From contig JAFWOB010000048.1 in assembly GCA_017510065.1 (NCBI GenBank), positions 1 through 36,830 of the forward strand: DNA of 36,830 nt, in the 5' to 3' direction. Below the pieces are notes generated by a model. That model was not told the DNA's origin and did no database searches. It saw only the letters and a list, made by a program, of their open reading frames with translations. Numbering within the stretch: the stretch's first letter is position 1; each line of letters opens with the position of its first letter. Source of the DNA: Parasporobacterium sp. (GTDB lineage: Bacteria > Bacillota > Clostridia > Lachnospirales > Lachnospiraceae). This document shows, piece by piece, positions 1,733 through 25,956 of this stretch. The translations under genes and the position numbers were made by a program.

Positions 1733-1769
1733 GTGCAGGATAATACAAACACTTGTACTGGAAATTGCA
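1733..1769 (+). promoter_or_regulatory. Regulon operator site 1, upstream of GH3-1
   Basis: Two direct repeats, GTGCAGGATAATACA (1733-1747) and GTACTGGAAATTGCA (1755-1769), start 22 bp apart. A TAAGAT box suitable as -10 begins at 1793, 23 nt after the site, and the GH3-1 ATG is at 1843. There is no separate -35, consistent with an activator binding over that region. The same arrangement is found at five other promoters in the window. Confidence 0.7.
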
Positions 1770-1842
1770 TGTTCCCGGGATGTGTGAATGGGTAAGATAT
1801 CATTTGCAATATTATGTAAACAATAAGCAGAGGAGGGACAAT

Positions 1843-4491
1843 ATGAAGAAAACATTTGCAGCTTTATTGGCGCTGGTCCTGTCGCTTGTGATGGTCATCG
1901 GTTCGGCCTATGCCGTATCTGCCGCTCCGGAAGGCGGGTTTGTCGCTGCGGAAGCAGTCGACGCACCGGCAGATTCCGAAGGCGGATCTGCGGAAGATGC
2001 ATCTGCGGAAGGCGAATCTCCGGAAGGCGAGTCTGCTGAAGAGGCTGCGCCGGAAAGTGAATCCGGAGAGGATGCCAGCGAGTCTGCAGAAGCAGAAGGC
2101 GAAGGTGAGTCAGAAGGAGGGCAGCAGGAAGGCGGCTTTACGACCACCGGATGGCAGGGAGAGGAAACCGGATTTGATCCCATCGAGTATCTGGTGATCC
2201 CGGCGGAAGGCGATCAGGCGGAACTGGGATATCTGGAAAGCACCCCGATCATCGAGGCAGATGCCCTGAAGTTTAAGGATCTGAACAAGAACGGCGAACT
2301 GGATATCTATGAAGACTGGCGCCAGCCGGTCGAAGACAGGGTGGAAGATCTGTATGCACAGATGACTGACGAAGAACGCTGCATGCTGATGTACCATGTC
2401 TGCACATGCGGCGACAACGCAGGCGTTACCTACAATTATCATACTCTGTATGATCAGGACTTTACATGGGGTGAGAAATATGCCTCCATGTGGTTCTACA
2501 TCACACAGTATGGTATTACCACCTATCTGGACAACTCCAACGGGACTCCGGATATGCAGGTGGGCGCACACAATGTCATGCAGGCGATCGCTGAGGAGAC
2601 CCGTCTCGGTGTCCCGGTCACTCTTTCCTGTGACAGACAGTACAATGCATGGGGCGGATATATTGACTCCCCGAAGAATGCATTTGTCTATGCCCATGAT
2701 ATGGAACTTGCTGCACAGATCTACAAGATGTATGCGGAAGAGACCAGAGCGATCGGCTACCATGTGATCCTGCAGCCGGTCGTGGAACTTGCATCCAAGA
2801 ACGGTGAGAATCCGGAATATGTAGCAGAAGTAGTAAAAACAGAAGTGGAAGCGACGCAGGAGGGAGGCATCCAGACCTGTACCAAGCATTATGTCGGATT
2901 CCAGTATGCAGGTTCTCATTCCGACGCCATGGTATTTGACTCCTGGTTTGACGGCTGGAGAACAGCCATTGCATCCGGCACCATGTGGATCATGAGCAAC
3001 TCCTACAACCAGGGTATCGGCGAAGGTGTGAAGGTCGACTACGACAGAGTTTCCCTTTCCTATCTGCGCAATGAACTGGGATATGACGGCATCGTTCTGA
3101 CGGACTGGGGCGCAGTCGGCAACGGCATGGCGATCGGTATCTATGACGAAGGAGGCCCGGAAGAGACCGATGTTGCAGCATTGACACTTCCGGAACGTTA
3201 TGCATGGGTCATCAACAATGGTGTTGATCAGTTAGGCGCACCCGGCGCAGGCAGCCCGGAACTCGCTCTGGAAGAATCCGGCCCCGGCATCCTTGGTGTT
3301 GGCACTGTCAAGGATGCATTGGATCAGGGTCTCATCACACCGGAACGGATCAAGGAAGCTGCCTGCCGCATCCTAGCCAGCAAGTTTGCGTCCGGCATTT
3401 TTGAGAATCCGTATTCTGACGGGCAGAAAGCACTTGAATTATCCGCCAGCCCTGAATTTGCTGCAGAAAAGTGGGAGATCACCGATAATGAGACATTGGA
3501 AGCTGCCCGTAATCCGGAAGAAGTGGAATTAGAGCGTCAGTTAATGGCAAAATCCACGATCCTTGTCAAGAATGATGACAATCTGCTTCCGCTGGATAAG
3601 TCTCTGAAGGTTTATGTGGAATCCACCGCTTCCAGCATCGCACAGGATAAGCTGGTCGAGTATTTCAGCCAGTATGCAGAAGTAGTGGAAGATATGGAAG
3701 AAGCAGATGTGGTCGTTGCTGACCTGACTTCCTACAATGACCAGGCAGAATACATTGTGGAAGATGCGAAAGATTTCGGCAAGAAACTGGTCATCGTCTG
3801 TAACTGCGTGGAGCCCGATGCATGGACCGTCGAAAATGCAGATGCGCTCCTTTATATGACCTTTACCCGTACTGCAGACCATGGTACTGGTATCCAGGGC
3901 ATCATCATTACGACCGAACCGGATGTCTATGCGCAGATCGTTTATGGTGACAGAGAACCGGCCGGTATGATCATTTCCGAAGTCGCCCGCGACAGTGCTG
4001 CAAGTGAAGCACAGTGGAAAGATATGGCAGGCGATATGGGTGCTGACAACTGGACCCGCATGATTCTTCTTGCTATGCTGAAGACTAGCGAAGATCACAG
4101 TGTGCCGGAGAATTTCGGCGATCCGCTGCTGTGCTACAAGTACGGCATGCGTTACGGCACCGAACCGGAATTTGTCTTTGATACGCTGGTACTCCCGAAG
4201 TCTACTACAGAAGTGACCGAAGAAACCAGCAGCGGCACCTCCACCTCCTACCAGACCATTGACGGCATTAAATCAGGAGAACCGTTCAGCGTATACAGCC
4301 TGCTGTGGAACAACGGCGCCGACGGTATGATCACCGTGAATGCTGCCATCGACGGTGAAGTTGCTGCCCAGAAGGTGATGGCTGTGAACGGCGGTTCCTG
4401 GAGGATCATCAAAATGGATCTGGTGATTGATGAAGCCGGCGAGCACACGGTGACAGTCGGTGACATTACCAAGACGATCACGGTAGAGTAG
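1843..4491 (+). CDS. Secreted glycoside hydrolase family 3 protein (GH3-1)
   Basis: 882 residues starting at the ATG preceded by GAGGAGGGA. A signal peptide (KKTFAALLALVLSLVMV...SAYA) is followed by a long Glu/Ser/Gly-rich linker (about residues 30-105). Then comes a Ca-loop-like FKDLNKNGELDIYEDWR shared by all four GH3 proteins here, and the TIM-barrel domain with KHYVGF and the nucleophile motif GIVLTDWG. The second alpha/beta domain retains YGDREPAG, the counterpart of the usual FGD.NPSG. A C-terminal CARDB/Ig-like beta domain ends in NGGSWRIIKMDL. GH3 enzymes release sugars from beta-glycosides. The usual GE...E acid/base segment of the second domain is not recognisable here. Closest relative in the window is GH3-2. 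Monocistronic, ending in a strong terminator; exact substrate unknown. Confidence 0.88.
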   Translation: MKKTFAALLALVLSLVMVIGSAYAVSAAPEGGFVAAEAVDAPADSEGGSAEDASAEGESPEGESAEEAAPESESGEDASESAEAEGEGESEGGQQEGGFTTTGWQGEETGFDPIEYLVIPAEGDQAELGYLESTPIIEADALKFKDLNKNGELDIYEDWRQPVEDRVEDLYAQMTDEERCMLMYHVCTCGDNAGVTYNYHTLYDQDFTWGEKYASMWFYITQYGITTYLDNSNGTPDMQVGAHNVMQAIAEETRLGVPVTLSCDRQYNAWGGYIDSPKNAFVYAHDMELAAQIYKMYAEETRAIGYHVILQPVVELASKNGENPEYVAEVVKTEVEATQEGGIQTCTKHYVGFQYAGSHSDAMVFDSWFDGWRTAIASGTMWIMSNSYNQGIGEGVKVDYDRVSLSYLRNELGYDGIVLTDWGAVGNGMAIGIYDEGGPEETDVAALTLPERYAWVINNGVDQLGAPGAGSPELALEESGPGILGVGTVKDALDQGLITPERIKEAACRILASKFASGIFENPYSDGQKALELSASPEFAAEKWEITDNETLEAARNPEEVELERQLMAKSTILVKNDDNLLPLDKSLKVYVESTASSIAQDKLVEYFSQYAEVVEDMEEADVVVADLTSYNDQAEYIVEDAKDFGKKLVIVCNCVEPDAWTVENADALLYMTFTRTADHGTGIQGIIITTEPDVYAQIVYGDREPAGMIISEVARDSAASEAQWKDMAGDMGADNWTRMILLAMLKTSEDHSVPENFGDPLLCYKYGMRYGTEPEFVFDTLVLPKSTTEVTEETSSGTSTSYQTIDGIKSGEPFSVYSLLWNNGADGMITVNAAIDGEVAAQKVMAVNGGSWRIIKMDLVIDEAGEHTVTVGDITKTITVE

Positions 4492-4525
4492 ATCTGAAAC
4501 TTTTCTTTCGAGTTAACAGCTGAAG

Positions 4526-4778: not shown

Positions 4779-4815
4779 GTGATGTATTTTACAAGTAATT
4801 GTGTCGAAATGTCTC
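4779..4815 (+). promoter_or_regulatory. Regulon operator site 2, upstream of the beta-helix/nitroreductase operon
   Basis: Direct repeats GTGATGTATTTTACA (4779-4793) and GTGTCGAAATGTCTC (4801-4815), 22 bp apart. The possible -10 TACCAT (4838-4843) is weak and begins 22 nt after the site. The ATG is at 4883. Confidence 0.65.
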
Positions 4816-4882: not shown

Positions 4883-6481
4883 ATGAAAAAGTTTTATATC
4901 ATTTCATTTCTCATGACAGCCTGTCTGGTGATGACGGGCACGGTATCTGCAGCACCGGAAGGAGCACAGATGCCTGGAGCGGCCGAAACTGTGCAGGCAG
5001 CGGAAGCAGCACAGGAGACTTCTTATGTCAGCGAACATCTGCCCGGGGCATCTGCAGTTTATGTTTCCGGAGAGACGATGACATTTGACGATGCGGCTTT
5101 CTATGGCGCCGGTTATGCAACGGATGAAGATATCACGGCCCAGATCCCCAATCAGTACGGCATGTGTGCCGTCGTGCTGGCGGCAGGCCAGGGGACAGAA
5201 GTGACGCTGAACAATCCTTCGATCACATCTGATCCGGAGAGTTATTCCAACGGTGTTTTTGCCGCTGCCATGGCGAAAGTGACCATCAACGGAGGAACGA
5301 TCGACACGGACAATTCTTCCGGACACGGCATCGATACGACCTATATGGGCCATGTATATGTGAAAGATACGAAGATCCATACCCGCGGTGAGACGTCGGG
5401 AGCACTGGCGTCTGATTTCGGCGGCGGCTTTATCTCGGCAGAGAATCTGGACATCCGGACAGAGGGCGGAAGCTCGCCCGGTATCTTCTGCGCCGGTTCC
5501 ACGATCATCCTGCTGAAGGATTCTGTCATTCATACCACAAAGGCGACCGGCGTGGTGGTTGCCCATGATCATTCTGTAGTCGTTCTGGATAACTGTGAAG
5601 TAAATGCTGCGGGAAATGCAGTCAACGGACTGCAGGCGCTTCCCAGTCCGGAGTCCTCAGAAGGAAGCAGGTTCTTCATGTTCGGAGGGTCTCTTGCCAG
5701 TGAGACCGGTGCTGCCGTGGCGGAAGGCGGCGGCCGTACGGAGGTGAATCTGATCGGTGTGGCATGCACGCCCGGATCTGAGGAAGCGATCTCCGTTACC
5801 AGAGGGATCATGACCGTCAATCTGTGGAATACAGAACTGACCGGGGTCATTCATTGTGAAGAAGGAAATTCCCTGACCGTCAATCTGTATGACGGTGCCG
5901 TTCTTACCGGCGATGTGACCGGTGAGGGTGAAGTCGTGATCAATGTATTTGACGGCGGTATCTATAACGGAAGCTTTGCAGTCAATGAAGCAGGTGAAGG
6001 TGCTGAAGCTCCGGTCCCCGGCACTTTCGATGATTATCTGATGAGCGATTGGGCTGCCGGCGCTCTGAAATGGCAGGGGAGTACCACGCAGACTTATGTG
6101 AACAGCGTAGAACCGCGGATCCTGGAAAATTCTGCTGCATGCTTTGCAGCTGATAAGACTACAGCAGTCGAATATGATCCGGAAGTCTATGATCCGTCGG
6201 AAAATGGCGTGGATCTGTCCGTCCTGGCCGAAAAGAGCGCACACGGATTTACGTATGATGAAGTCTTCGGCGGTGCGGAGTCCAGAGGCGGTGCCGGTTC
6301 TGGTGAATCCGCCGGTGAAAGTCCAGAGGGTAAATCGGGCGAAGAATCCGCCGGTGATTCCGGTGAAGGAGAATCCGCAGGTGAAAGCCCCGAAGGCGGC
6401 GCACCGGGTGAAAGCCCTGCAGGAGGATCAGATGGCGAAAGCCCTGCTGCGGAAACAGAGGAAACAGTACCGGCAGAATAA
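4883..6481 (+). CDS. Secreted right-handed beta-helix-like protein with acidic repeat tail
   Basis: 532 residues with AAGGAGA before the ATG. A signal peptide (KKFYIISFLMTACLVMTGTVSA) is followed, over about residues 90-370, by short parallel-strand repeats rich in Asn, Gly and Thr. Typical segments are VTINGGTID, VYVKDTKIH, IILLKDSVIH, VVVLDNCEVN, MTVNLWNTEL and LTVNLYDGAV. This pattern is usual for pectate-lyase-like beta-helix adhesins and polysaccharide-binding or -cleaving proteins; I see no catalytic motif that would settle which. The last 75 residues are a low-complexity Gly/Glu/Ser/Pro tail (GESPEGG-like repeats). There is no LPXTG or transmembrane anchor, so it may be released or held by the tail. 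Followed after 16 nt by the nitroreductase-like gene, likely one transcript. Confidence 0.72.
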   Translation: MKKFYIISFLMTACLVMTGTVSAAPEGAQMPGAAETVQAAEAAQETSYVSEHLPGASAVYVSGETMTFDDAAFYGAGYATDEDITAQIPNQYGMCAVVLAAGQGTEVTLNNPSITSDPESYSNGVFAAAMAKVTINGGTIDTDNSSGHGIDTTYMGHVYVKDTKIHTRGETSGALASDFGGGFISAENLDIRTEGGSSPGIFCAGSTIILLKDSVIHTTKATGVVVAHDHSVVVLDNCEVNAAGNAVNGLQALPSPESSEGSRFFMFGGSLASETGAAVAEGGGRTEVNLIGVACTPGSEEAISVTRGIMTVNLWNTELTGVIHCEEGNSLTVNLYDGAVLTGDVTGEGEVVINVFDGGIYNGSFAVNEAGEGAEAPVPGTFDDYLMSDWAAGALKWQGSTTQTYVNSVEPRILENSAACFAADKTTAVEYDPEVYDPSENGVDLSVLAEKSAHGFTYDEVFGGAESRGGAGSGESAGESPEGKSGEESAGDSGEGESAGESPEGGAPGESPAGGSDGESPAAETEETVPAE

Positions 6482-7251: not shown

Positions 7252-7288
7252 ATCCTGTATTTTACAAATCGTTGTGTCGTAATATTCA
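7252..7288 (+). promoter_or_regulatory. Regulon operator site 3, upstream of the MaoC/TRAP operon
   Basis: Direct repeats ATCCTGTATTTTACA (7252-7266) and GTGTCGTAATATTCA (7274-7288), 22 bp apart. TAAGAT (7312-7317) begins 23 nt later, the same hexamer and spacing as at site 1. The site begins only 4 nt after the nitroreductase-like gene. The leader to the start at 7543 is long (about 220 nt) and holds two further inverted repeats. Confidence 0.65.
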
Positions 7289-7542: not shown

Positions 7543-9003
7543 ATGAGAGAGTTTAATCCCGATGATTTCATTGTCCGTTATCCGGGGCAGTATGATGAAA
7601 GAGAACAGAAAGCCTTGGATGAATGGTGGGCGCAGGCACAGGCCATTAACAATAGAGGATCGATCAATGTGAAGGCATTGATCGAAGGAACCCTTCCAAA
7701 GGAGACGCCGGGGATCGGACCCGTTCTTCCTGTGACAGAAGCAATGGTGAAATATAACCATGCGAAATATGAGCAGGAGAATCCATTGTTCAATGATGCG
7801 GAATATGCGAAGAAAGCAGGCTATAAGGACATTCCGGCATACATGACCTTCGGGGCTCCGGACGATGTCTATACCAGTGCCTTTCCGCCGGAAGCCAGAG
7901 ATACGCTTCTGGTATCCCAGGCCAGCCATTGGGTAGAAAATTATACGGATATTTATCCGGGCGACACCCTGTATTTCGTGACCGATGAAAGAAAGATGCT
8001 CGATCTGACTCCTGCAGAAGGCTCTGTATATCGTTCCACAGCACTGTATAACGCAGGAACGGTTTACAACCAGAGAGGCGAGATCGTCAATAAAGTCGGC
8101 ATTCATTATGTGGAAAGCGTAAAGACCTATAAACCGGGCAGAAAGCCCGAAGATTTTGAGGCCATGGGATTCATGGGCTTCTGGGAAGATCCGGACTGGA
8201 TGCAGAAGGAAGACCACATTTATACCGATTCGGACTATGCCTATATGAAGTCTGTCTGGGAAAAGGAAGAGATAAGAGGCAGCAAGCCCAGATACTGGGA
8301 GGATGTGAAGATTGGTGATAAACCGGCCCATGTGCTGGAGGGACCGATCATTGAAAGCGTTCTGCCGGCCTTCCCCTTCGGCCAGGGCCTGGGTGGAACC
8401 AGGACCATGAAAAAAGAGATCCTTGACCCGGAAGTGAAAAAAACGATGGTGAAAGATGCCCACGGAATCTTAAGACTTCCGAAGAAATCCGATTATACTC
8501 CCCGGGTTCCGGACGGAGCGAAGGCTTCTTTCATGGTGGAAGACGGAAGAGGCGAGGCTCTGAATGAAAAGATGGAAAACGAGAATATGGATGTGGATAC
8601 AGCGGACATCCATGCTGCAGAAGGCGATATGAGAGCTGCCATCATCAATTTCTTCGGAAGAGATGTTTCCGTCCATGCCATAAATAACTGGATGGGGGAT
8701 GCAGGCAGGATCCACTCCATCCGATGGAGCATCATGCCGCCGGAAACCCACGCAGCTTTCGGGAAACCGGTACCGGAGAGCCCCTATTATGTGCACTGGA
8801 TCGAACAGGCACCCGGAATGGAACATGCCCATGTGAACAGTCACGGCCTTACCAGGGATACGGCGGAAGTCTTTTCGGTGGTTACCGATAAATATGTAAA
8901 GAACGGAAAGTATCTGGTGAAACTGATCTGGTGGATCAAGGATATCCAGGATACCATCTGGATCAACGGCTGCACAGAGGTGGAACTGCCGCACAGATCC
9001 TGA
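7543..9003 (+). CDS. MaoC-like double-hotdog dehydratase family protein
   Basis: 486 residues. The ATG at 7543 is preferred over an upstream in-frame ATG (7453) because AGAAGGAGA precedes it. The N-terminal half has the FAS1-like dehydratase pattern NDAEYAKKAGYKDIPAYMTF and a GD...V hotdog (YPGDTLYFVTDE; GEIVNKVGIHYVESVK). A second hotdog-like region begins at PRYWEDVKIGD and continues through INNWMGDAGRIHSIRW to the end. Relatives hydrate or dehydrate acyl thioesters or similar hydroxy compounds in the cytoplasm. The canonical catalytic Asp/His pair of R-hydratases is not clear, so the reaction is undetermined. It is the first gene of the TRAP operon (22 nt to dctQ), which suggests it acts on the imported compound. 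Confidence 0.62.
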   Translation: MREFNPDDFIVRYPGQYDEREQKALDEWWAQAQAINNRGSINVKALIEGTLPKETPGIGPVLPVTEAMVKYNHAKYEQENPLFNDAEYAKKAGYKDIPAYMTFGAPDDVYTSAFPPEARDTLLVSQASHWVENYTDIYPGDTLYFVTDERKMLDLTPAEGSVYRSTALYNAGTVYNQRGEIVNKVGIHYVESVKTYKPGRKPEDFEAMGFMGFWEDPDWMQKEDHIYTDSDYAYMKSVWEKEEIRGSKPRYWEDVKIGDKPAHVLEGPIIESVLPAFPFGQGLGGTRTMKKEILDPEVKKTMVKDAHGILRLPKKSDYTPRVPDGAKASFMVEDGRGEALNEKMENENMDVDTADIHAAEGDMRAAIINFFGRDVSVHAINNWMGDAGRIHSIRWSIMPPETHAAFGKPVPESPYYVHWIEQAPGMEHAHVNSHGLTRDTAEVFSVVTDKYVKNGKYLVKLIWWIKDIQDTIWINGCTEVELPHRS

Positions 9004-9025: not shown

Positions 9026-9679
9026 ATGAAAACGCATGTATGGGCGGAGAAGATCGACAGGGTCGTATTTAAGATCATGTACGGGTTCTCACTGGCCGCA
9101 GGGCTGGCGTTGGTACTGATCGCCATACTCAGTACCGCAGATTCTCTGGGAACAACGATCTTTTCCAAAAGCCTTCCGAACGGAACGGATTGGGTAGCAT
9201 ATCTGAATATTCCGGTGGTATTCCTTTCCATGGGCTTTATCCAGGTGGAACGGGGCAACACCGTGGTGGATCTGCTCAGCAACAAATTTCCGAAGGGACT
9301 GCAGAAGACCGTTAAGGTATTCGGCTATTTACTGGGCATGGTCATGTGTGTGTTCCTGTGTAAGTGTGAGTTTTCTCTGATGGTGGATAAGCTGACATCC
9401 GGCACCCGGTCTTCATCGGCGGCCAATGCCTTTGCGGTATGGCCCTTTGCGGCAGTCATTGCCATCGGATATCTGCTGGTGGCGCTGGCGTTTCTGTGGT
9501 CCTTGTTCCGGGAATTCCTGATCGCTCCGGAACGGAGGATGGGCGCTCTGCCTCAGCCGGCAGCAGAAGGATTGACGGAAGATACCGAAATGATACACCA
9601 GGCGATAGCCGGTGGTGATACAGCCGGGAAAGCGCAGCACCAAACCGGAACAAAGAAACAGAAAAAGGAGGAACACTGA
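9026..9679 (+). CDS. dctQ: TRAP transporter small permease subunit (DctQ type)
   Basis: 217 residues with AAAGGAGG before the ATG. Four predicted membrane segments (about residues 18-40, 52-70, 92-112, 133-155) and the small-subunit pattern of a Trp-rich second segment (TDWVAYLNIPVVFLSMGF) then a charged loop (VERGNTVVDLL). The last 45 residues are a hydrophilic tail with no family signature. DctQ pairs with DctM in the membrane to form the sodium-driven TRAP permease. The stop is 1 nt from the dctM start, so translation is probably coupled. Confidence 0.88.
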   Translation: MKTHVWAEKIDRVVFKIMYGFSLAAGLALVLIAILSTADSLGTTIFSKSLPNGTDWVAYLNIPVVFLSMGFIQVERGNTVVDLLSNKFPKGLQKTVKVFGYLLGMVMCVFLCKCEFSLMVDKLTSGTRSSSAANAFAVWPFAAVIAIGYLLVALAFLWSLFREFLIAPERRMGALPQPAAEGLTEDTEMIHQAIAGGDTAGKAQHQTGTKKQKKEEH

Positions 9680-9680
9680 T

Positions 9681-10991
9681 ATGGCAACAGCAGCATGGAT
9701 CGGGATCGGTGTTTTTGCACTGTTGATGGTGCTTGTATTTATCGGAGTTCCCATTTGGGTCTCTATGATCGGCAGTTCGTTTCTCGGATTTTTACTCCTG
9801 GGCGGAACGAAGATCCTGACTTTACAGTTTACACAGGCGCCTTTTACTCTGGGAGCCAATTATACATACGCGGTCCTGCCTCTGTTCATGCTGGTGGGAA
9901 CACTGGCGGGAGAGACGGGGATCGCCCAGGGCGCATTTGATTCCATGAACAAATGGTTCGGCAGATCCCGCGGCGGACTTTTATACGCCATCGTCGGAGC
10001 AAATGCAGTCTTCGGCGCCTGCTCCGGAATCTCGGTGGCAGGAAATGTGGTCTTTGGCAAGATCGCCATGCCGCAGTTGGAAAAAAACCATTATGACAGA
10101 AAGCTTTCCCTCGGGGCAATCGTAGGCGCAGGATCTCTGTCTTCCCTGATCCCTCCCAGCGTCCCCATTATCCTGTTCTGTCTGATGACAGATCTGTCGA
10201 TCGGAACGACACTGATGTACGGACTCTCTCTGGGGATCATCATGATCATCTTGCTGTGTCTCTGCATCCGGGTATATATCCTGATCTTCCCGAAGAAGGT
10301 TCCTGGCAAGGATGCACTGGAAAAGGTCCCCATGAAGGAAAAGGTAAGATCCCTCAGGTATCTGATTCCCTTTATCCTGGTGTTTGCGCTGATTGTAGGC
10401 GGTACCCTGACAGGACTGTTTCCTTCCACGGTAGCCGGAGCAGTAGCATCGGTGGCTCTGATCATTTATGCGCTGATCAAGAGAGTGAAGCCGAAAAGGA
10501 TCATTCACTGCATCTGGGAAGCATCGGTCATGAACGCCGGCATTTTCCCGATCATCATAGCAGGATCGATCTTCAGCCGTTTTATCTCCATGACCAGACT
10601 GGCGGATAATCTGGCAAAGGCCATTGCCAATGCGAATATGGCCCCCATACTGGTATTTACCCTTGTTGTGATCTTCTATGTGATCTGCGGATGTGTCATG
10701 GATATTGCGTCTATCATCATCATTACCGTGCCGATCGTCTTCCCGCTCCTGACGGGACTGGGCTACAATCCGTTCGTGCTGTGCGTGGTCCTGGTCATGC
10801 TGTGTGATGCAGCCGGCATGACCCCGCCCATCGGAATGAATGTGTTTGCAGTGTCCAACGCCCTCAGGATCAATACTTCAGAGATCTTTAAAGGCGTGAT
10901 CCCCTTCTTTGTACTGGATATCGTGGCGATCTTTATCATGGGAATGGTTCCGCAGATCGTGGAGTTTATCCCTAAACTGATGGGCTATTAA
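9681..10991 (+). CDS. dctM: TRAP transporter large permease subunit (DctM type)
   Basis: 436 residues, about twelve membrane segments, normal length for DctM. Recognisable family stretches include the N-terminal FIGVPIWVSMIGSS, SGISVAGNVVFGKIAMPQL, GAGSLSSLIPPSVPIILF and DAAGMTPPIGMNVFAVSN. It forms the transport channel, driven by the sodium gradient and fed by DctP. The ATG at 9681 follows AAAAAGGAGG, which lies inside the dctQ end; the longer open frame to 9612 overlaps dctQ and is rejected. Confidence 0.92.
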   Translation: MATAAWIGIGVFALLMVLVFIGVPIWVSMIGSSFLGFLLLGGTKILTLQFTQAPFTLGANYTYAVLPLFMLVGTLAGETGIAQGAFDSMNKWFGRSRGGLLYAIVGANAVFGACSGISVAGNVVFGKIAMPQLEKNHYDRKLSLGAIVGAGSLSSLIPPSVPIILFCLMTDLSIGTTLMYGLSLGIIMIILLCLCIRVYILIFPKKVPGKDALEKVPMKEKVRSLRYLIPFILVFALIVGGTLTGLFPSTVAGAVASVALIIYALIKRVKPKRIIHCIWEASVMNAGIFPIIIAGSIFSRFISMTRLADNLAKAIANANMAPILVFTLVVIFYVICGCVMDIASIIIITVPIVFPLLTGLGYNPFVLCVVLVMLCDAAGMTPPIGMNVFAVSNALRINTSEIFKGVIPFFVLDIVAIFIMGMVPQIVEFIPKLMGY

Positions 10992-11041
10992 GCAATACAG
11001 ATATCAATATTGAAATGTTTTATAAAAACGGAGGTTACAAA

Positions 11042-14430: not shown

Positions 14431-14467
14431 AGAACGAAATATACAAGTAACTGTGTTGGATATTACA
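14431..14467 (+). promoter_or_regulatory. Regulon operator site 4, upstream of the VTC/DUF4956/CotH genes
   Basis: Direct repeats AGAACGAAATATACA (14431-14445, weaker) and GTGTTGGATATTACA (14453-14467, near consensus), 22 bp apart. A TATATA -10 candidate begins at 14492, 24 nt after the site; the VTC start is at 14550. Confidence 0.65.
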
Positions 14468-15242: not shown

Positions 15243-15279
15243 CGACATTTATTTGGATAATGATTTGGAGGAATAAAAG

Positions 15280-15951: not shown

Positions 15952-15962
15952 AGCAGAATTGA

Positions 15963-16095: not shown

Positions 16096-16164
16096 TAAAG
16101 CGGGAAAGACCGCCCGATCAGAAAATCACAACAGAAAAACCTGTCTTCAGCATGGATATAGCAT

Positions 16165-18420
16165 ATGGTAGAAAACAGACATATTACAAAAATAATCATA
16201 GTGATCGTAGCAGCTGCAGTAGTGCTGTGCCTTCTTGCAATGGCTTTTGCGGACAAACTCTCCAATAAGCTGGGAGGTTCCGGCGTCAGCATGGCATATG
16301 AATCCCGGCTGTTCGATACGGATGAGATCATTCATATCGATATCGAGATGAATGAAGAGGAATGGAACAAGATGCTGGACAATGCGCTGGCGGAAGAATT
16401 TGTTCCCTGCAACGTGGTGATCAACGGAACACGGATCAACAATGTTGCCATCCGCCCGAAAGGGAATACCAGCCTGTCCTCGATCGCGATGGATCCCGAT
16501 ACCAACCGGTACAGCTTCAAACTGGAGTTTGACCATTATGTAAAGGGACAGACCTGCTTCGGCCTGGACAAGCTGATCCTCAACAACAATTATGCGGATG
16601 CCACCAATATGAAGGAGGCCATCATCTATGATATGTTCCGGTATCTGGGGGCGGATGCGTCTCTGTACAACTTTGCGGAGATTTTTGTAAACGGAGAATA
16701 CTGGGGCGTCTATCTGGCGCTGGAGGCGGTAGAGGACAGTTTCCTGCTGCGGAACTTCGGAACGCAGGACGGCGAAATGTATAAACCGGACAGCATGAAC
16801 ATGGGCGACCGGGATGACGGGGATTCCGACGGTGGGGAAAGACCGGAAGGAGAGTTTCCCGCGCCGGGAGATTCGGACGGCGACAGTGCCGGCGGGGAAG
16901 GAGATTCTCCGGGAGGCAGTGCCGGCGGACAGGGAGAGTCCCAGGGAGACAGCGGAGGAGATTCCCGTGAGGGGGAAGCAGGAAATGTGCCGGCTGACCC
17001 GGCTGCGCCGGATGAAATACAGGCGGATCCTGCAGAACCCGTAAGACTTCCGGAAGCTGCCCCGGAAGCGGAAACCGCAGCGGAGTCTGAAACAAAAGCA
17101 GCGGAGGCCGGAACAAAAGCAGCGGAGGCCGAAACAGAAACCGCAGCGAACGGCGCCCCGGCCGCCGGAAATGGCGATCCAGGGGAAAGCAGCGGTGATT
17201 CTGCCGGAGGAGAATCTGATCCGGGCAGTGCTCCGGATATGGAAGGGGAATCCGCCGGCGGTCCCGGAGGCTTCGGCGGCGGTCCCGGAGGAGGAGGCGC
17301 CAACCTGAATTATACGGATGACGATCTGGACAGCTATTCTACGATCTGGCAGGGAGAAGTGACCAGCACTTCCAAGGCCGATCACCGCCGGGTCGTGACG
17401 GCACTGAAAAACATCAGTGAGGGCAATGACCTGGAAACCTATATGGACGTGGACAACCTGCTCCGGTATATGGCCGTTCATACCTTTGCGGTCAACTCAG
17501 ACAGCCTTTCGGGCGGGATGGCGCACAATTATTACCTCTATGAATATAACGGGCAGCTTAACATGTTCCCGTGGGATTATAACCTCTCTTTCGGCGGCAT
17601 GGGAGGAGGCGGCATGGGAGGAAACGGTGCGTCTGAAATGATCAATGATGCGATCGACACCCCGTTTAATGCCACCAGGTTTTTCGATAAACTGTTGGAA
17701 GATGAGACATATCTGGAGCAGTACCATGCATATCTGCGACAGCTGGTGGAAGAATATGTGCTCGGCGGACGGTTCGACGAAGTCTACCAGAGGATCCGGA
17801 GCCAGATCGATCCGTTGGTGGAAACGGATCCTACGGCGTTCTACACGTACGAGGAATACCAGGCCGGCGCCGAAATGCTGTGTCAGACCGTGAAGCTCCG
17901 GGCGGAGAGCATCGAAGGACAGTTGGACGGGATTATCCCTTCCACAGATAACGGGCAGCGGCAGGATGCTTCCGCACTGGTTGATGCTTCCGGGATCGAT
18001 ATCGATACAATGGGGACCTTCGGCATGGGAGGCGGAAATGGACCCGGCGGTGATTCCGACGGCGGCCCCAGCAGGGGAGAGGCAGCGCCGGAAGCTAATG
18101 GATCTGACCAGGGAACTGCAGCGCCGGAACCCAATGGATCTGACCAGGGAATTGCGGTGCCGGAAGAACTTCAGATTGCTGCTTTACCATCCGCTTCTGA
18201 AAGCGGTCAGGAAGCAGCAGAGATTGCTGTCCCTGCCGATGGCATTGATCCGGGAGCACAGGGATCCGGCAACATGCCTGCTCCGGAGTTTCCGGGAAGC
18301 CGCAGGGCCTCTGCCGGTTCGGGAATGAATAAGAACCTGATCACCTTTGCTGTCTGTTTGGGAATCGCGATCCTCGGTATCGCAGGTGTCGTGCTGTTTG
18401 CACGAAGAAGGAAAAAATAA
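16165..18420 (+). CDS. Membrane-anchored CotH kinase family protein with low-complexity inserts
   Basis: 751 residues. There is a membrane segment at each end (about 8-28 and 722-745, the latter followed by RRRKK), so the body lies outside the cell. The CotH domain begins at IIHIDIEMNEEEWNKML and includes RPKGNTSLS, FGLDKLILNNNY, NGEYWGVYLALEAVEDSFL and, after a long gap, MFPWDYNLSFGG. CotH proteins are atypical kinases acting on secreted proteins. The gap is a Gly/Ser/Glu/Asp/Pro-rich insert of about 170 residues (about 210-380) that splits the kinase domain, with a second low-complexity stretch near 610-715. No good ribosome site precedes the ATG at 16165; a hydrophobic N terminus supports it. 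Likely cotranscribed with the VTC and DUF4956 genes. Confidence 0.83.
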   Translation: MVENRHITKIIIVIVAAAVVLCLLAMAFADKLSNKLGGSGVSMAYESRLFDTDEIIHIDIEMNEEEWNKMLDNALAEEFVPCNVVINGTRINNVAIRPKGNTSLSSIAMDPDTNRYSFKLEFDHYVKGQTCFGLDKLILNNNYADATNMKEAIIYDMFRYLGADASLYNFAEIFVNGEYWGVYLALEAVEDSFLLRNFGTQDGEMYKPDSMNMGDRDDGDSDGGERPEGEFPAPGDSDGDSAGGEGDSPGGSAGGQGESQGDSGGDSREGEAGNVPADPAAPDEIQADPAEPVRLPEAAPEAETAAESETKAAEAGTKAAEAETETAANGAPAAGNGDPGESSGDSAGGESDPGSAPDMEGESAGGPGGFGGGPGGGGANLNYTDDDLDSYSTIWQGEVTSTSKADHRRVVTALKNISEGNDLETYMDVDNLLRYMAVHTFAVNSDSLSGGMAHNYYLYEYNGQLNMFPWDYNLSFGGMGGGGMGGNGASEMINDAIDTPFNATRFFDKLLEDETYLEQYHAYLRQLVEEYVLGGRFDEVYQRIRSQIDPLVETDPTAFYTYEEYQAGAEMLCQTVKLRAESIEGQLDGIIPSTDNGQRQDASALVDASGIDIDTMGTFGMGGGNGPGGDSDGGPSRGEAAPEANGSDQGTAAPEPNGSDQGIAVPEELQIAALPSASESGQEAAEIAVPADGIDPGAQGSGNMPAPEFPGSRRASAGSGMNKNLITFAVCLGIAILGIAGVVLFARRRKK
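17089..17131 (+). repeat. 18-bp tandem repeat inside cotH
   Basis: A nearly identical 18-bp word containing ACAAAAGCAGCGGAGGCC is repeated in tandem, giving T-K-A-A-E-A/T-K-A-A-E-A in the low-complexity insert. Tandem in-frame repeats like this can gain or lose copies by slippage. Confidence 0.7.
18081..18166 (+). repeat. 36-bp tandem repeat inside cotH
   Basis: Two copies of a 36-bp unit encode AAPEANGSDQGT and AAPEPNGSDQGI, followed by a degenerate third start. The shared core is AATGGATCTGACCAGGGAA. It lies in the extracellular stalk before the C-terminal membrane anchor. Confidence 0.75.
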
Positions 18421-19671: not shown

Positions 19672-22236
19672 TTACTGGATCGTCATGGTTCCTGTCAGAT
19701 CGCCGATGGTAACGGTGTGCTCACCCGGAGTATCCAGGGTCAGTTCCATTTCCACGACTCTCCAGCTTCCGCCGTTCACTGCCATGATCTTCTCGCCGAT
19801 CAGTTCGTCACCGTCATAAGCCTGGACGGTTGTCACACCGTCGCTGCCATCGTTCCACAAAAGTACATAGGCGGTGAAAGGTTCGCCCGCTGTTGCGGTA
19901 GTCGACAGCTGTGTCCTTGTGGACGCACCGCTGCTGGTCTCTTCTGTGATCTCGATCAGTTCGGTCGGGAGGTACAGTGTATCATAACGGAATGCGGGTT
20001 CCTGGCCGTAACGCATGCCATACCGGAAGCAAAGCAGGGGATCGCCGTAGTTGTTCGGCACAGAATGGGTCTCATTCTCGCGCATCAGAGCAAGAAGGAG
20101 CATACGCACATATCTGCTGGCGCCCTGATCACCTTCCAGGTCTTTCCACTGCAGGCCGTCCATGGAGATGTCTCTTGCGATCTCCTTGACGATCATACCG
20201 GCAGGTTCGCGGTCACCATAGATCAGTTCCGCATAGACAACAGGTTCTGTTGTGGTGATAAAGCCTTCTGCACCTGTTCCGTGGTCAGCACCTCTGGTGA
20301 AGTTCATGAACAGGACCGCATCGCCCATTTCCAGTGCATAGGTGGACGGATCAACGCAGTTGGAAACGATCACAAGTTTCTTGTCGAGATCCTTCGCATC
20401 TTCGATGATCAGCTCTGCCGCATCGTTGAACTGTGTGCAGTCGGCGATCACGACATCCGCTTCCTCGATCTCTTCGACCAGAGTGCCTGCAGCTGCGAAT
20501 GCATCCAGGATCTCCTGTTTTGTGGCGGACGAAGCAGTGCTGTCGAAGTAAACTTTCGCGTCACGGCTCAGCGGGAGCAGATTGCCATCGTTCTTTACCA
20601 GAACTGCGGATTCCGCCTGGAGGACACGTTCCAGTTCCACTTCTTCCGGATTACGCGCCGCCATGAGAGACTGCGTGTCTACGATGTCCCAGTGCTGCGC
20701 AATGTATTCCGCGCTTGCGGAAAGGCTTAAAGCATATTCCGAATCAGAGTACGGGTTTTCAAACAATCCCATATCAAACTTGGTCCGGAGGATCCTTCTG
20801 CAGGCTTCTTCCAGACGTTCTTCGCTGATCAGGCCCTGTTCCACGGCATCTTTGGTACCCTGCAGGCTTAATGTATTGGTGTTTTCTGTTTCAATGGTCA
20901 CGCCCGGATTGCCCATCTGATCCAGTCCCAGATTAATGGCAAATGCATAACGCTCGGGAATGGAAAGGGACAGAAGATCGATCCCATCAGCGGTAACGCC
21001 GGAAGAGTTGTTGTCACCCTGATCGCCCCAGTCAGACAGGACGACGCCGTCATAGCCAAGGGTGTCGCGCAGATAATGCATGGTCTGTGCATCATAGTCT
21101 ACATGAACAGTGTTGGAAAGTCCTGTATTGTAGCCGTTCAGCATGAGCCATCTCGGATTGGCTTCCAGAGCTCTTGCCCAGCCGTACAGCCAGTTCTCCG
21201 TGTTCTGTGCCACGGATCTTGCACCGGCGAAGTCAGAGTCGCCGCCTCGTCCGATGAAATGTTTGATGCAGGCGTAGGTGCCGTTCGGGACCTGAATGGC
21301 ATTGACTTCCGCAAAACTCATTTCACCGATGTAATACGGATCCTCACCGTTCCAGGAGCCGATCTCAACGCCGTAAGGATGGAGCACGATGTGATATCCT
21401 ACCGCGCGGGTCTCCAAAGAATAGAGGGTCCAGAGCTTTTCGGCAAGCGGCAGATCATTTGCCACGCCAAATGCATCATGAGCTGTGTCGATCATACCGC
21501 CCCATGCATTATACTGTCTGTCGCAGGAGATGGTGACCGGGATGCCGAGTCTGGCTTCTTCGCCCATCTGCTGCATGGCATTGTGGTAGTATACCATTTC
21601 TTCGACAGTGCCGTTGTCATTGCTCAGGTAATGGGTGATGCCCATCACATTGATGTAGTACCACATGGAGTATTTGGTATTTCCCATGCTGGAGCCGCCG
21701 CCGGGAGCACCGCCGTTGGAATCGCCGCCGGATCCGCCTTCTTCGGCAGGAGCAGCTTCCTGTGCTGGTTCTGCTTCTTCTGCCGGAGATGCTGCACTGT
21801 CACTTCCGCCGGGACCGCCCTGCTGTGCAGCGTTTTCATCGACATAAGGCTCTTTTGCCCACAGCAGACGCTCATCATGAAAATCATTACCGGACGGGTC
21901 GCCGCAGGTGTTCGGATGATACAGAAGAGCGACTTTCTCATCCAGGGTCATCTGGCTGTACAGGTCCGTAATACGCTCTTCGGTGTCCAGTCTCCAGTCT
22001 TCATAGGGATCCAGTTCGCCGTTGGCATTCAGATCCTTAAAAGAAAGACCGTCCACTTCGATGATCTCTTTGAGAGTAGCACCGATCTCCGGCTGTATAT
22101 CGGTCGCCGGGATAATGGTGATCTCCCGCATCTCACTGACGGAACCGTCAGAAGGTGCTTCACCGGCAAAGGCGGTGCTGCCGATCGAAATAACGGCAAA
22201 AGCCAGTGCCAGCATACAAACCAGTGTCTTTTTCAT
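19672..22236 (-). CDS. Secreted glycoside hydrolase family 3 protein (GH3-2)
   Basis: 854 residues. The ATG at 22234-22236 has AGGAGG upstream and opens a signal peptide (KKTLVCMLALAFAVISIG...TAFAG). The Ca-loop-like FKDLNANGELDPYEDWR is followed by a TIM barrel with a low-complexity Gly/Glu/Ala/Ser insert (about residues 145-195), then ISCDRQYNAWGG (identical to GH3-1), KHFIGRGG and the nucleophile motif GVVLSDWG. The second domain has YGDREPAGMI, and the C terminus ends in a CARDB-like domain with NGGSWRVVEM. Same architecture as GH3-1, so the two are paralogues. As there, the acid/base GE...E segment of typical GH3 enzymes is not visible. Transcribed from operator site 6, behind the response regulator. 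Confidence 0.88.
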   Translation of the reverse strand: MKKTLVCMLALAFAVISIGSTAFAGEAPSDGSVSEMREITIIPATDIQPEIGATLKEIIEVDGLSFKDLNANGELDPYEDWRLDTEERITDLYSQMTLDEKVALLYHPNTCGDPSGNDFHDERLLWAKEPYVDENAAQQGGPGGSDSAASPAEEAEPAQEAAPAEEGGSGGDSNGGAPGGGSSMGNTKYSMWYYINVMGITHYLSNDNGTVEEMVYYHNAMQQMGEEARLGIPVTISCDRQYNAWGGMIDTAHDAFGVANDLPLAEKLWTLYSLETRAVGYHIVLHPYGVEIGSWNGEDPYYIGEMSFAEVNAIQVPNGTYACIKHFIGRGGDSDFAGARSVAQNTENWLYGWARALEANPRWLMLNGYNTGLSNTVHVDYDAQTMHYLRDTLGYDGVVLSDWGDQGDNNSSGVTADGIDLLSLSIPERYAFAINLGLDQMGNPGVTIETENTNTLSLQGTKDAVEQGLISEERLEEACRRILRTKFDMGLFENPYSDSEYALSLSASAEYIAQHWDIVDTQSLMAARNPEEVELERVLQAESAVLVKNDGNLLPLSRDAKVYFDSTASSATKQEILDAFAAAGTLVEEIEEADVVIADCTQFNDAAELIIEDAKDLDKKLVIVSNCVDPSTYALEMGDAVLFMNFTRGADHGTGAEGFITTTEPVVYAELIYGDREPAGMIVKEIARDISMDGLQWKDLEGDQGASRYVRMLLLALMRENETHSVPNNYGDPLLCFRYGMRYGQEPAFRYDTLYLPTELIEITEETSSGASTRTQLSTTATAGEPFTAYVLLWNDGSDGVTTVQAYDGDELIGEKIMAVNGGSWRVVEMELTLDTPGEHTVTIGDLTGTMTIQ

Positions 22237-22382: not shown

Positions 22383-22419
22383 TGAAATTTCAGGCACAGA
22401 TGATTGTAAAATCCGACAC
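22383..22419 (-). promoter_or_regulatory. Regulon operator site 6, upstream of GH3-2
   Basis: Read on the minus strand: GTGTCGGATTTTACA (22419-22405) then GTGCCTGAAATTTCA (22397-22383), 22 bp apart. TATTCT (22359-22354) follows after 23 nt as a possible -10. The site begins 3 nt after the response-regulator stop, giving GH3-2 its own promoter even though it lies downstream of the regulator on the same strand. Confidence 0.7.
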
Positions 22420-22422: not shown

Positions 22423-24081
22423 TCATTTCTGTTTCAGGGATGACTGATACTGAGACGGCGAGATCCCCGTGACCTGCCGGAAGACTTTGCTGAAATAGGC
22501 ATAATCATCGTAGCCGACACAGGCTGCCACCTGATGAAGAGGGATATCCGGATGCTCCGTCAGCATCTTTCTGGCATTGTCCATCCGGCACTGTACCAGA
22601 TAAGAATTGAAGGACGTTTCCCCGTATTTGCGGAACAGACGGCTCAGATATGTCTGAGAGATCCCAATCTCCGAACAGACGGTCTGGATGCTGATAGGCT
22701 GGTTGAATTTTTTCTGTATCGTGCGGATGGCATACTGATATATGTCTTCCGGTGATTTCTGCTTCAGACTGGTATGATCCGGGTCATACAGTACCTGGTA
22801 CAGTGACTCCAGAAGTTCCTGATAGGAGACTGCATGGTTGGTCAGCGTTTCTGCTTCGGTCATGACCTGATCTGTGTCTTTCCAGTGATCCAGACGAACG
22901 GCCTCAACCAGATGCAGGAGCTGCTGCATCATGACATACGCCTGTCTCTGGGTAACTTTCTTTCCATCCCATTCTGCTCCCAGAGTCCGGAAGATATGAT
23001 GGATGTCCTTCAGATTGTTTTCGCTGACACACAATTCCAGCCGCCTCAGGATTGTCGGAGGGATATGCACCGCAGACGGAGTACATTCCGCCGGCTTTCC
23101 GGACCGCTGCCTGCTTGCAGGATCAGCATCATCATGTACAGCATCGGAAGCATCATGGTCCGCAGAAACAGTCAGGAATTCTTCATGAAAATGCCCGATC
23201 ACGGCGTTGTGGCGCAGCAGTTTTGACGCCTGTGTGTAAAATGTTCCGAGCTTTTCGAATTCCATGCCTGCCTGCCCGATAATGAACGTTGCCATGAGAT
23301 ACCCGGAGGTTTCGGCAATCTGTCTGACTGCTTTATGAAAAGCGGAAACAGAGCCGCCGGCTTTGGCGAACAGAAGGAATTCCCTGTCATCCCTGCCCGT
23401 CAGGAAATAGATATTTTCAGGATCTACGGACATCAGAGAACCGGGCTGTCCGTCCGGGATGGAAAACGGCTGTCCGCCTGGAGCGTTCTGTTTATTTTCC
23501 GCAGCAGGCAGGGCATCAAAAGGCACGATGCCGGCAAGTGCAGTCTGCTGAAGAGGTTTTTGCGGATAGATCACATTTCCGTACCGGAGAAGTGCAAAAT
23601 AGAATTTGGAATCTCCGAAGATGCTGACGAAGAAATCCGGGTCGGCAGTTTCATCATTCAGCAGAGCTGTCAGTTTCCGGAGGATCTGATCTCCTTTTGC
23701 AGCATCAAGTTGGTTCCTGATCTTGTTCAGGAGTTCTTTCATATGAGAAACACTGACCGGCTTCAGGATATAGTCATCGACAGATGCTTCGATCGCTCCG
23801 TGGGCATATTCAAATTCCGAGTAGCCGCTGACGATCACGATATGAAGATCCGGCCGCAGCTGGCGGGCAGCCTTGGCAAGGGCAATGCCGTCCATGTCCG
23901 GCATACGGATATCCGTGATCAGCACATCTGCAGCGGAAGGATTCTCCTTCAGCCAGGCAAGGGCAGATGCGCCGTCTCTTAACTGGTGTACCACCGAAAA
24001 ATCCGGAGTATATTTCGTTATAATTGTCTCCAGAAAACGCAGTGCAGGCAATTCATCATCTACAAGCAATATCGAATACAC
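22423..24081 (-). CDS. AraC-type response regulator (YesN-like)
   Basis: 552 residues. An N-terminal receiver domain has YSILLVDDE, phospho-acceptor Asp57 in VLITDIRMPDMDG, then VIVSGYSEFEYA and DYILKPV. A long linker region of about 300 residues follows, then a C-terminal AraC double helix-turn-helix: ISIQTVCSEIGISQTYLSRL and VAACVGYDDYAYFSKVFR with TGISPSQYQ. The start is GTG, 3 nt after the kinase stop, with TAGGAGA inside the kinase end, so the pair is translationally coupled. AraC domains bind paired direct repeats about two helical turns apart, matching the six 22-bp-spaced operators in this window; it is the obvious candidate to read them. Confidence 0.93.
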   Translation of the reverse strand: MYSILLVDDELPALRFLETIITKYTPDFSVVHQLRDGASALAWLKENPSAADVLITDIRMPDMDGIALAKAARQLRPDLHIVIVSGYSEFEYAHGAIEASVDDYILKPVSVSHMKELLNKIRNQLDAAKGDQILRKLTALLNDETADPDFFVSIFGDSKFYFALLRYGNVIYPQKPLQQTALAGIVPFDALPAAENKQNAPGGQPFSIPDGQPGSLMSVDPENIYFLTGRDDREFLLFAKAGGSVSAFHKAVRQIAETSGYLMATFIIGQAGMEFEKLGTFYTQASKLLRHNAVIGHFHEEFLTVSADHDASDAVHDDADPASRQRSGKPAECTPSAVHIPPTILRRLELCVSENNLKDIHHIFRTLGAEWDGKKVTQRQAYVMMQQLLHLVEAVRLDHWKDTDQVMTEAETLTNHAVSYQELLESLYQVLYDPDHTSLKQKSPEDIYQYAIRTIQKKFNQPISIQTVCSEIGISQTYLSRLFRKYGETSFNSYLVQCRMDNARKMLTEHPDIPLHQVAACVGYDDYAYFSKVFRQVTGISPSQYQSSLKQK

Positions 24082-24084: not shown

Positions 24085-25869
24085 TCATTCTCCTACTCGT
24101 TCATACAGTTTTACGACAGCACCGTTTTCATTATACAGGTCCATACGGAAATTTCCATGGCAGTAATAATAAATCCGGCGATAAGTATTAATCAGCCCCA
24201 GATGTCCGTCAAAACCGGAATCTTCCGAAAGGTCGCCCTTTTCGATCCGACGGAAAGTTTTGCGCAGCCGGCTCAGGGTATCCCAGTCAAATCCGTCTCC
24301 ATTATCCTGAACGATCAGAACAGGTTTTCCTTCTTCGTAGTATCCCAGGATCAGGATCCGCCGCTGGAAGTCAGCACCTTTTACACCGTATTTTAACGAA
24401 TTCTCTACCAGAGGCTGCAGGGTCAGTCTGGGGATAACAGTATCCATCATCTCCTCCGGTACGTCGATTTCAAATTCCAGATGATCTTCATAGCGTGCCT
24501 TACACAGATACAGATAGTTTCGGACATGGTCCAGTTCTTCCCTTAATGTGGCGGTCTGGGAACGGACATCTGTGGAATAGCGAAGCATCCGGGCAAACTG
24601 GTCACACAGTTCCGTAATTTCTTCGCTGCCGCTTTCCAGTCCTTTGGCGCTGATAATATTCAGAGTATTATAGATAAAATGCGGGTTGATCTGCAGTTGC
24701 AGAGCATTCAGCTGTGCTTTCAGGGTACCTTCCCGGAGAGAAACCTCATTATCGTGAGATTCCCGGAGCTTGGTCAGCATATTATTGAATGTCTGTTCCA
24801 GCTCATACATTTCCGGATCCCTCGGAGTTATTACATGGACAGGGCCGGTATTTTCGGTATGTGCAAGAAAGGCGTCTGCGGGCAGTTCGTTGATTTTACC
24901 CTGAAGTTTTCGGATGGACCTGGTAAGTCCCAGAGAGATTAATACGACCATAAATACTGCAAACAGCAGGATCGGAAGCATAATCATCAGCGAGCGTTTC
25001 AGTATGGCTGAGCGGGTATTACCAAGGGCATCGATTTCCTGGGAAATATAAATATCCAGTCCCAGGGTCTTGCTGTGCTGGCGGACCACCAGACGGTCAC
25101 TGGCACCCTCAATCTGATAATGCAGCATTTCCCCGAGCGGAATATCTCCATAATCATAATCGTCCTTCCACATACGGAACAGATCATCGCCGTTGTCGAA
25201 AATCGCCTGTGTGGAGATTCCTTCCTGCTCCAGAACCAGGAAAATATTAGCCAGATCATCCAACGGAGCGGAGACTTCCAGATATCCGATCAGTTCTCCG
25301 TGATACATGACAGCCCGGACATCAGTGAAAACCAGTACATTGCCCCGGATGGACCAGGGGTCCGGATGAGCCCCCAGAATCAGATGCCCATAGGGATTAT
25401 TATCCAGACGTTCCAGATATTCCAGAGAATCAACGGTATCCCGTGCCTCATCGGAAAAACTGACAATTGCATCAGTCTTTTCAAACCTGCTGGTGAGGAA
25501 AAAACCGTCTCGGTTGTAAACGCTGACTCTGAAAAATGCAGAAGACAGCGGTGCTTCATACATGATCCGGGACATCTGTGTCTGGGCATTTACCAGATTG
25601 ACAGAATATTCGATATCCCCACTGTCGGAAATCGTATGAAAAGAATCCATGAAGACAGAATTGGACGTCAGTTCTTCCATGGAGTAATCCATGAGCCGGA
25701 TATAGTCCTCGATCTCTGTCTGCATCATAGTGCTCATGGTGTTCAGAGAAGTGTGGGTATTGGCATACAGATTGTCCAGACTGGAATGGTAGGATATGAA
25801 AGTAAATGCCAGCGTGACAACAGCTGCCAGTACAGAGAACAGGATGATCAGTTTGACGCTCATTTTCAT
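24085..25869 (-). CDS. Sensor histidine kinase (YesM-like)
   Basis: 594 residues, AAAGGAGG before the ATG. Membrane segment 1 is at about residues 5-27 and segment 2 at about 295-315 (MIMLPILLFAVFMVVLISLG); the 270 residues between form an external Cache-like sensor. HAMP-like helices follow. The phospho-acceptor motif is LQLQINPHFIYNTLNI, and the ATPase domain has LVENSLKYGV, VQDNGDGFDW and GHLGLINTYRR. This family senses extracellular sugars or oligosaccharides, often with a binding protein, and phosphorylates an AraC-type regulator. Diverges from the CBM9/ABC operon. Confidence 0.93.
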   Translation of the reverse strand: MKMSVKLIILFSVLAAVVTLAFTFISYHSSLDNLYANTHTSLNTMSTMMQTEIEDYIRLMDYSMEELTSNSVFMDSFHTISDSGDIEYSVNLVNAQTQMSRIMYEAPLSSAFFRVSVYNRDGFFLTSRFEKTDAIVSFSDEARDTVDSLEYLERLDNNPYGHLILGAHPDPWSIRGNVLVFTDVRAVMYHGELIGYLEVSAPLDDLANIFLVLEQEGISTQAIFDNGDDLFRMWKDDYDYGDIPLGEMLHYQIEGASDRLVVRQHSKTLGLDIYISQEIDALGNTRSAILKRSLMIMLPILLFAVFMVVLISLGLTRSIRKLQGKINELPADAFLAHTENTGPVHVITPRDPEMYELEQTFNNMLTKLRESHDNEVSLREGTLKAQLNALQLQINPHFIYNTLNIISAKGLESGSEEITELCDQFARMLRYSTDVRSQTATLREELDHVRNYLYLCKARYEDHLEFEIDVPEEMMDTVIPRLTLQPLVENSLKYGVKGADFQRRILILGYYEEGKPVLIVQDNGDGFDWDTLSRLRKTFRRIEKGDLSEDSGFDGHLGLINTYRRIYYYCHGNFRMDLYNENGAVVKLYERVGE

Positions 25870-25905
25870 GGCAGCTGCCTCCTTTCCGGATGATGATTAT
25901 GAATC

Positions 25906-25935
25906 ATTATAGTATAAATGGGTCCTATTTTACAA
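25906..25935 (-). promoter_or_regulatory. Promoter of the kinase/regulator operon, overlapping operator site 5
   Basis: On the minus strand TTGTAA (25935-25930), an 18-nt spacer and a perfect TATAAT (25911-25906) lie 37 nt before the kinase start. The -35 and part of the spacer coincide with the first repeat of operator site 5. Regulator bound there to activate the divergent operon should cover this promoter. Confidence 0.6.
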
Positions 25936-25956
25936 ATAGTTGTGTCGGATATTCCA
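25920..25956 (+). promoter_or_regulatory. Regulon operator site 5, upstream of the CBM9/ABC operon
   Basis: Direct repeats GGGTCCTATTTTACA (25920-25934) and GTGTCGGATATTCCA (25942-25956), 22 bp apart. A perfect TATAAT (25980-25985) begins 23 nt later, and the CBM9 gene starts at 26071. Confidence 0.75.

Follow-up and report, generated by a model that had tools for sequence, protein, structure and literature searches.

A 22-bp direct-repeat operator confined to one GH3/CBM9/transporter island of Parasporobacterium sp., with a YesN-type response regulator as its probable binder

Introduction

Two-component systems with AraC-family response regulators are already known as local activators of carbohydrate gene clusters, as set out in the available text of two reports (PMC8579813, PMC3572039). 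Examples in Caldicellulosiruptor bescii include AviRS, BxgRS, MosSQ and others (PMC8579813), and 12 AraC-type two-component pairs were counted beside carbohydrate loci in Clostridium cellulolyticum (PMC3572039). The available parts of several experimental papers give no conserved binding site, or an unclear one, for such systems (PMC12175519, PMC7075642, PMC3572039, PMC11034029). Here, we describe a direct-repeat operator that occurs six times in a 36,830-bp stretch of Parasporobacterium sp. DNA (hereafter the window), which corresponds to the entire contig C229 of the source genome G000 (3.47-Mb assembly, 242 contigs). The sites are likely to be the operators of a YesM/YesN-type two-component system encoded in the same gene island, whose AraC-family regulator would act as a local activator standing in for the -35 element. 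AraC at araI1-I2 and XylS at Pm also occupy head-to-tail half-sites about two helical turns apart that reach the -35 element; their half-site spacing is 21 bp, versus 22 bp here, and both proteins answer a bound effector, not phosphorylation.

The C. bescii systems, which can be likened to this locus by description and not by motif sequence, also place a two-component system with an AraC-type DNA-binding domain beside its own targets. In three of the five, tandem-repeat sites were found upstream of promoter elements, and the regulators were read as activators. However, these systems are presented as local regulators of small loci (all as given in the available text of PMC8579813), whereas in the present island at least nine promoters share one operator. 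XydS/XydR of C. cellulolyticum similarly has an AraC/XylS-type response regulator that adjoins and activates a cluster of carbohydrate-active genes. XydR was reported not to be autoregulated, and the kinase-regulator pair described here likewise lacks an operator of its own; unlike in the present case, no consensus site was identified in the part of that report available, and the effector domain bound regions 237-599 bp upstream of start codons (PMC3572039). Two-component control of glycan or carbohydrate genes is also the function of XuaDSR in Ruminiclostridium cellulolyticum and of TCS07 and YesNM in Streptococcus pneumoniae; yet the accessible text reports no conserved sites for XuaDSR (PMC12175519) and none for RR07 in 2020 (PMC7075642). 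In 2024, again judging from the part available, a candidate RR07 motif of another kind was proposed and YesN (YesNM) of S. pneumoniae had no clear repeat (PMC11034029). No prior report of this operator, its pairing with the regulator or the island was present among the matches listed from open-licence PMC papers.

The operator is unusually well resolved for such a system. With nine operators accompanying one such system in one genome and an exact promoter geometry, the recognition code of this regulator class becomes directly testable, and a 22-bp direct repeat with a -10 element at +24 and no -35 element provides a search rule for the operators of its relatives.

The Operator and Its Genomic Confinement

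The original prediction placed six sites in the window, each with two similar 15-bp words whose starts are 22 bp apart, and all six were recovered (Table 1), every one oriented in agreement with the downstream gene. The words are close to GTGYCGGAWWTTNCA, and conservation extends past the second word into CAT. In a leave-one-out analysis, every held-out site ranked 6th of 73,584 positions, with only the five sites used for training above it. Scores under the full matrix were 45.4-53.9 for the six sites and 4.2 for the next-best position. Matches to the single word given in the original prediction numbered 22, 19, 19, 21, 25 and 25 of 30, in window order. Five places in the window reached at least 20/30, four of them being the sites at 1733, 14431, 22383 and 25920; 50 first-order Markov shuffles gave a mean of 0.12 such places (maximum 2). 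At least 19/30 was reached by seven places, compared to a mean of 0.46 (maximum 3) in 50 such shuffles. The six-site pattern is far above chance.

If duplicated promoter-plus-gene units had simply carried copies of the sites along, the repeats would have no regulatory meaning, and the island does possess paralogous GH3 and CBM9 genes. However, unrelated genes (VTC, MaoC-like, beta-helix, LysR and esterase) have sites in front of them as well, and a 17-site alignment shows conservation nowhere but in the words, at their edges and in the -10 element. We find such an origin scarcely credible.

Wider searches used two profiles: R1, built from the six window sites on sequence only and stopping before the -10 element, and R2, built from 17 sites with the -10 element included. 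In the 3.47-Mb G000 assembly, R1 gave 11 matches at E<=10, nine of them at E<=1.8e-4 and the remaining two at E 0.18 and 5.1. The nine strong matches were the six in the window plus C10:1020, C78:427 and C78:3402. R2 returned the same nine and no others at E<=10; since these sites belong to its training set, only the absence of further matches is informative. Positions C78:1-141 are identical to window 36690-36830, an exact 141-bp overlap at the right end of the window, and C10 is collinear with the end of contig C152 of the sister genome G012, a contig that also carries window 243-4565 in reversed orientation. Because of this overlap and this synteny, all strong sites fall in one island that extends beyond the window on both sides; we infer the linkage of C10 from the sister genome.

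All nine strong matches (9/9, on C229, C78 and, via G012, C10) are confined to the gene cluster of the regulator itself. The operator is private to one GH3/CBM9/transporter island and does not mark a scattered regulon. A genome scan had been foreseen in the original prediction, and in it the motif was not at background frequency: there were nine strong matches in 3.47 Mb and none off the island contigs. The idea of one regulon of six promoters was borne out in the shared operator; however, the set forms one island, not a dispersed regulon, and is larger than six, with nine sites in G000, three extra in G012 and five in G145 (Candidatus Pullichristensenella). Island operators also precede the promoters of LysR genes. 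As for the unusual joining of gene families that had been proposed, the sites are indeed shared, but the odd mix is partly plain neighbourhood because the regulon is one island.

Promoter Geometry and Proposed Mode of Action

Geometry was analyzed in 18 sites, comprising the six in the window and 12 others whose selection relied on operator score and ignored the -10 element. The mean -10 score peaked sharply at a single position, 24 bp past the repeat (2.43, against -2.06 for the best other position), and none of 20,000 random rotations was as sharp. A TAnnnT hexamer at offset 23-25 was present in 5/6 window sites and 11/12 others, so that the predicted -10-like hexamer after each site held for all window sites except that at 14431, whose TATATA lacks the final T. 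The other miss was the upstream operator of L001, a locus of G145. In L001, two operators on the minus strand (8103 and 8037) lie 66 bp (3 x 22) apart at one gene, and only the downstream one has a -10 element. Promoter scans listed no -35/-10 pair that uses the -10 elements of the six window sites. A start codon with a Shine-Dalgarno-like sequence followed within 400 bp on the same strand in 17/18 rows, two of which share one gene and two of which (G145 C125 and C78) have doubtful starts; the miss was a decayed gene in genome G001. Probable start codons were found inside the longest open reading frames for GH3-1 (ATG 1842), the MaoC-like gene (ATG 7543) and GH3-2 (ATG 22236).

A direct repeat with a period of about two helical turns that ends at the -35 position is the arrangement of an AraC-family class II site. 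In the mechanism we propose, an extracellular saccharide would be sensed by the kinase, which would then phosphorylate the response regulator. The regulator would occupy the two words, probably as two molecules arranged head to tail. Since the word nearer the promoter stops at roughly the position expected for the start of a -35 element, a regulator bound there could substitute for the missing -35 and recruit polymerase to the -10 element starting 24 bp on (class II activation). Genes for secreted proteins (GH3 and CBM9), for the TRAP and ABC transporters and for the LysR regulators of the island extension would be switched on jointly. The binder, its phosphorylation, activation rather than repression and the signal are what we infer from these arrangements.

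Repression was considered at this point. The regulator might bind chiefly to let the repeats block polymerase until a signal arrives, which would agree with the proximal word adjoining the -35 position and with a TTGTAA-18-TATAAT pair (minus strand, 25935-25906) whose position overlaps operator 6 and from which the kinase-regulator genes could be transcribed. On the other hand, the target promoters have no recognisable -35 element, the fixed 24-bp distance would suit contact activation, and the AraC-family two-component regulators of Caldicellulosiruptor, with tandem sites upstream of promoters, are read as activators in the available text (PMC8579813). A chiefly repressive role appears quite improbable. 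Given the overlap of the TTGTAA-18-TATAAT pair with operator 6, binding of the regulator might also shut off its own promoter; the number of promoter-like matches in the promoter scan was near chance.

Probable Identity of the Binding Protein

The response regulator contains a receiver domain and an AraC-type helix-turn-helix (HTH) domain and is encoded next to a YesM-type kinase, features that define the YesN type. Several lines of comparison support it as the likeliest binder. Its first HTH helix, SQTYLSRLFRK, is common to G000, G012, G145 and G318, and its second, YDDYAYFSKVF, is common to G000, G012 and G145 and altered in G318, G013 and G039; we take these to be the recognition helices. 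Neither string was present in the other AraC-type domains detected at E<=1e-12, six in G000 and six in G001.

The same operator was detected in three other genomes (G012, G145 and G001), and diverged candidates in three more (G013, G318 and G039). G012, whose regulator is 97% identical to that of the window, had nine matches, distributed over three contigs, each of which aligns to the window or to its extension. Four of the nine correspond to sites in the window (those at 4779 and 14431 fall between G012 contigs), and a further two correspond to the C10 site and to the first site on C78. The remaining three are extra and precede a GH3 gene, an esterase gene and a LysR gene that has an Opp-type transporter after it. 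The G145 regulator is 41% identical overall and 63% in the DNA-binding part. Its genome had five matches, two before the CBM9 orthologue and three others on C78, C125 and C4: that on C125 precedes a GH3-like gene, that on C4 follows a GH3-like gene and precedes another start, and the remaining one is near a contig end. When 80 loci with any relative of the regulator were scanned, the two best sites (32.5 and 24.5) were both in L001, the locus of the closest relative; the best control scored 18.5 and one other locus, L036, 18.9. The operator is thereby conserved beside orthologues of the regulator. At CBM9 promoters, a site was present in G012 and L001 and a diverged candidate in G013 and G318.

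The loci of G013, G318 and G039 were selected for the presence of the regulator and not for sites. With a joint model of repeat and -10 element, the diverged candidates scored 20.9 and 20.5 in G013 (best control 9.5), 21.5 in G318 (6.1) and 31.9 in G039 (8.0). Diverged regulators thus appear to pair with diverged candidate sites, and in these three genomes the second recognition helix is altered as well. The candidate at L155:16446 (minus strand, G039 C112) lies in a distant YesN-type locus, upstream of a gene for a solute-binding protein; its repeat is related and is followed by TATGAT at offset 24. This hints that a 22-bp repeat with a -10 element at this distance may be a general arrangement in the YesN-type class.

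Site presence in relatives was called at E<=1e-4. Of 145 genomes including G000, strong sites at this cut-off occurred in G000, G012 and G001; relatives of the regulator (E<=1e-30) were present in G000, G012, G013 and G039. At E<=0.01, R2 had a match in 13/145 genomes. A looser scan of relatives, in which 31/145 genomes matched at E<=0.05, was rejected, as 28 of them had a best E of 0.0033-0.045, where E-values are rough. One match in a 397-genome family sample (G314, E 5.5e-4) was unsupported by scans of its contig.

Several of these observations weigh against the assignment to this regulator. G001 has three sites with the -10 element in register (Table 1), and no regulator with these helices was found in this 94% complete assembly, where the best DNA-binding match was 37%; given this completeness, the regulator may have been lost, may fall in an assembly gap or may be replaced by another binder. 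For two large GH3 genes on G012 C152 (26839 and 31064), no site exceeded the cut. The candidates in G013 and G318 are weak, since whole-genome R2 searches listed only matches at E>=0.05 and none on the regulator contig, and the G039 candidate had E 0.07 in such a search. In addition, ten genomes besides G000, G012 and G001 had R2 matches at E 2e-4 to 0.0095 (six examined). Counted in favour of the assignment, the weak R2 matches of the six examined genomes (G129, G040, G038, G051, G044 and G008) had a -10 element at 23-25 in none of the six cases.

The sites could be real activator operators of another protein, either a LysR regulator of the island or a different AraC-type protein. LysR genes occur in the window, on C10 and on G012 C152, and two of the three G001 sites, found with no matching response regulator, adjoin LysR genes. 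However, L001 has sites and the G013 contig has candidates, yet none of the genes called in either gave a match to the window LysR at E<=1e-6, and those LysR proteins that do occur near sites are only 24-41% alike to it. LysR sites are also usually interrupted dyads, not 22-bp direct repeats. A different binder therefore seems rather unlikely, though less so than the alternatives of repression and duplication. The link between operator and regulator made in the original prediction gains from co-occurrence, from diverged candidates beside diverged regulators and from the recognition helices, loses from G001, and stays provisional.

Divergence of the Sensing Half

Comparison of G000 with G012 (C105) revealed an abrupt change in similarity within the kinase-regulator region. 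Identity was 98-100% over 21,900-23,800, which includes the DNA-binding half of the regulator and the downstream side, fell to 56-80% from about 23,800 to about 26,200 and was back to 84-91% by 26,500. The diverged block takes in the CBM9 promoter, the entire kinase and most of the receiver domain; the operator at 25920 lies inside it, and here G000 and G012 differ at 2/37 bases. It looks as though the input module was exchanged onto an unchanged output module. We tentatively raise the possibility, with less confidence than for the assignment to the YesN-type regulator, that the island is a self-contained exchangeable regulon, in which helices, operators and targets would be locked together across genomes and the sensing half replaced as a block. 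Operator words would then drift where the second recognition helix drifts.

Gene Content of the Island

The features are listed in Table 1. Many N-termini of the downstream genes are signal-peptide-like by eye. Window units without an operator include a MATE gene, the LysR/ADH genes and the kinase-regulator pair.

Table 1. Operators and genes of the window, and sites in genome G001. Offsets are those of the -10-like hexamer after the operator; locations are window positions unless a contig or locus is named.
Feature	Location	Strand	Remarks
Operator 1	1733..1769	+	Upstream of GH3-1 (ATG 1842); TAAGAT at offset 24
Operator 2	4779..4815	+	Upstream of beta-helix protein and nitroreductase genes; TACCAT at offset 23
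Operator 3	7252..7288	+	Upstream of MaoC-like and TRAP transporter genes; TAAGAT at offset 24
Operator 4	14431..14467	+	Upstream of VTC/DUF4956/CotH genes; TATATA at offset 25, final T missing
Operator 5	22383..22419	-	Directly past regulator stop codon, upstream of GH3-2; TATTCT at offset 24
Operator 6	25920..25956	+	Between divergent kinase-regulator pair and CBM9/solute-binding protein/GH3/ABC unit; TATAAT at offset 24
G001 site	C85:91906 (L153:9909)		E 4.5e-11, -10 at 25; before decayed GH3-2-like reading frame
G001 site	C89:79155 (L196)		E 4.7e-4, -10 at 24; before gene with signal-peptide-like start
G001 site	C126:109811 (L214)		E 0.0036, -10 at 24; before LysR pair, 47/57% alike to C10 pair
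GH3-1, large GH3-like protein	1842..4491	+	N-terminus signal-peptide-like by eye
Beta-helix protein	4883..6481	+	N-terminus signal-peptide-like by eye
MaoC/FAS1-dehydratase-like protein	7543..9003	+	Pfam match exactly at cut-off
TRAP transporter DctQ, DctM, DctP	9026..12094	+
LysR gene	12256-13194		In the window
VTC, DUF4956, CotH genes	14550..18420	+
GH3-2	19672..22236	-	N-terminus signal-peptide-like by eye
YesN-type response regulator, candidate binder	22423..24081	-	Receiver and AraC-type HTH; Pfam PF00072, PF12833, PF00165 above cut-offs
Sensor histidine kinase, YesM-type	24085..25869	-	Adjoins regulator; His_kinase PF06580; dCache and HAMP below cut-offs
CBM9, solute-binding protein, GH3-3, two ABC permeases, GH3-4, MalK-type ATPase	26071..35774	+

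NCBIfam searches of the GH3 proteins gave sub-cut-off matches only, among the matches listed. Among the large GH3 proteins scanned, GH3-1, GH3-2 and the product of the C78 GH3 gene matched the GH3 N-terminal domain only. GH3 genes are abundant in the island: four are located in the window, one on C78 and three more in the G012 extension.

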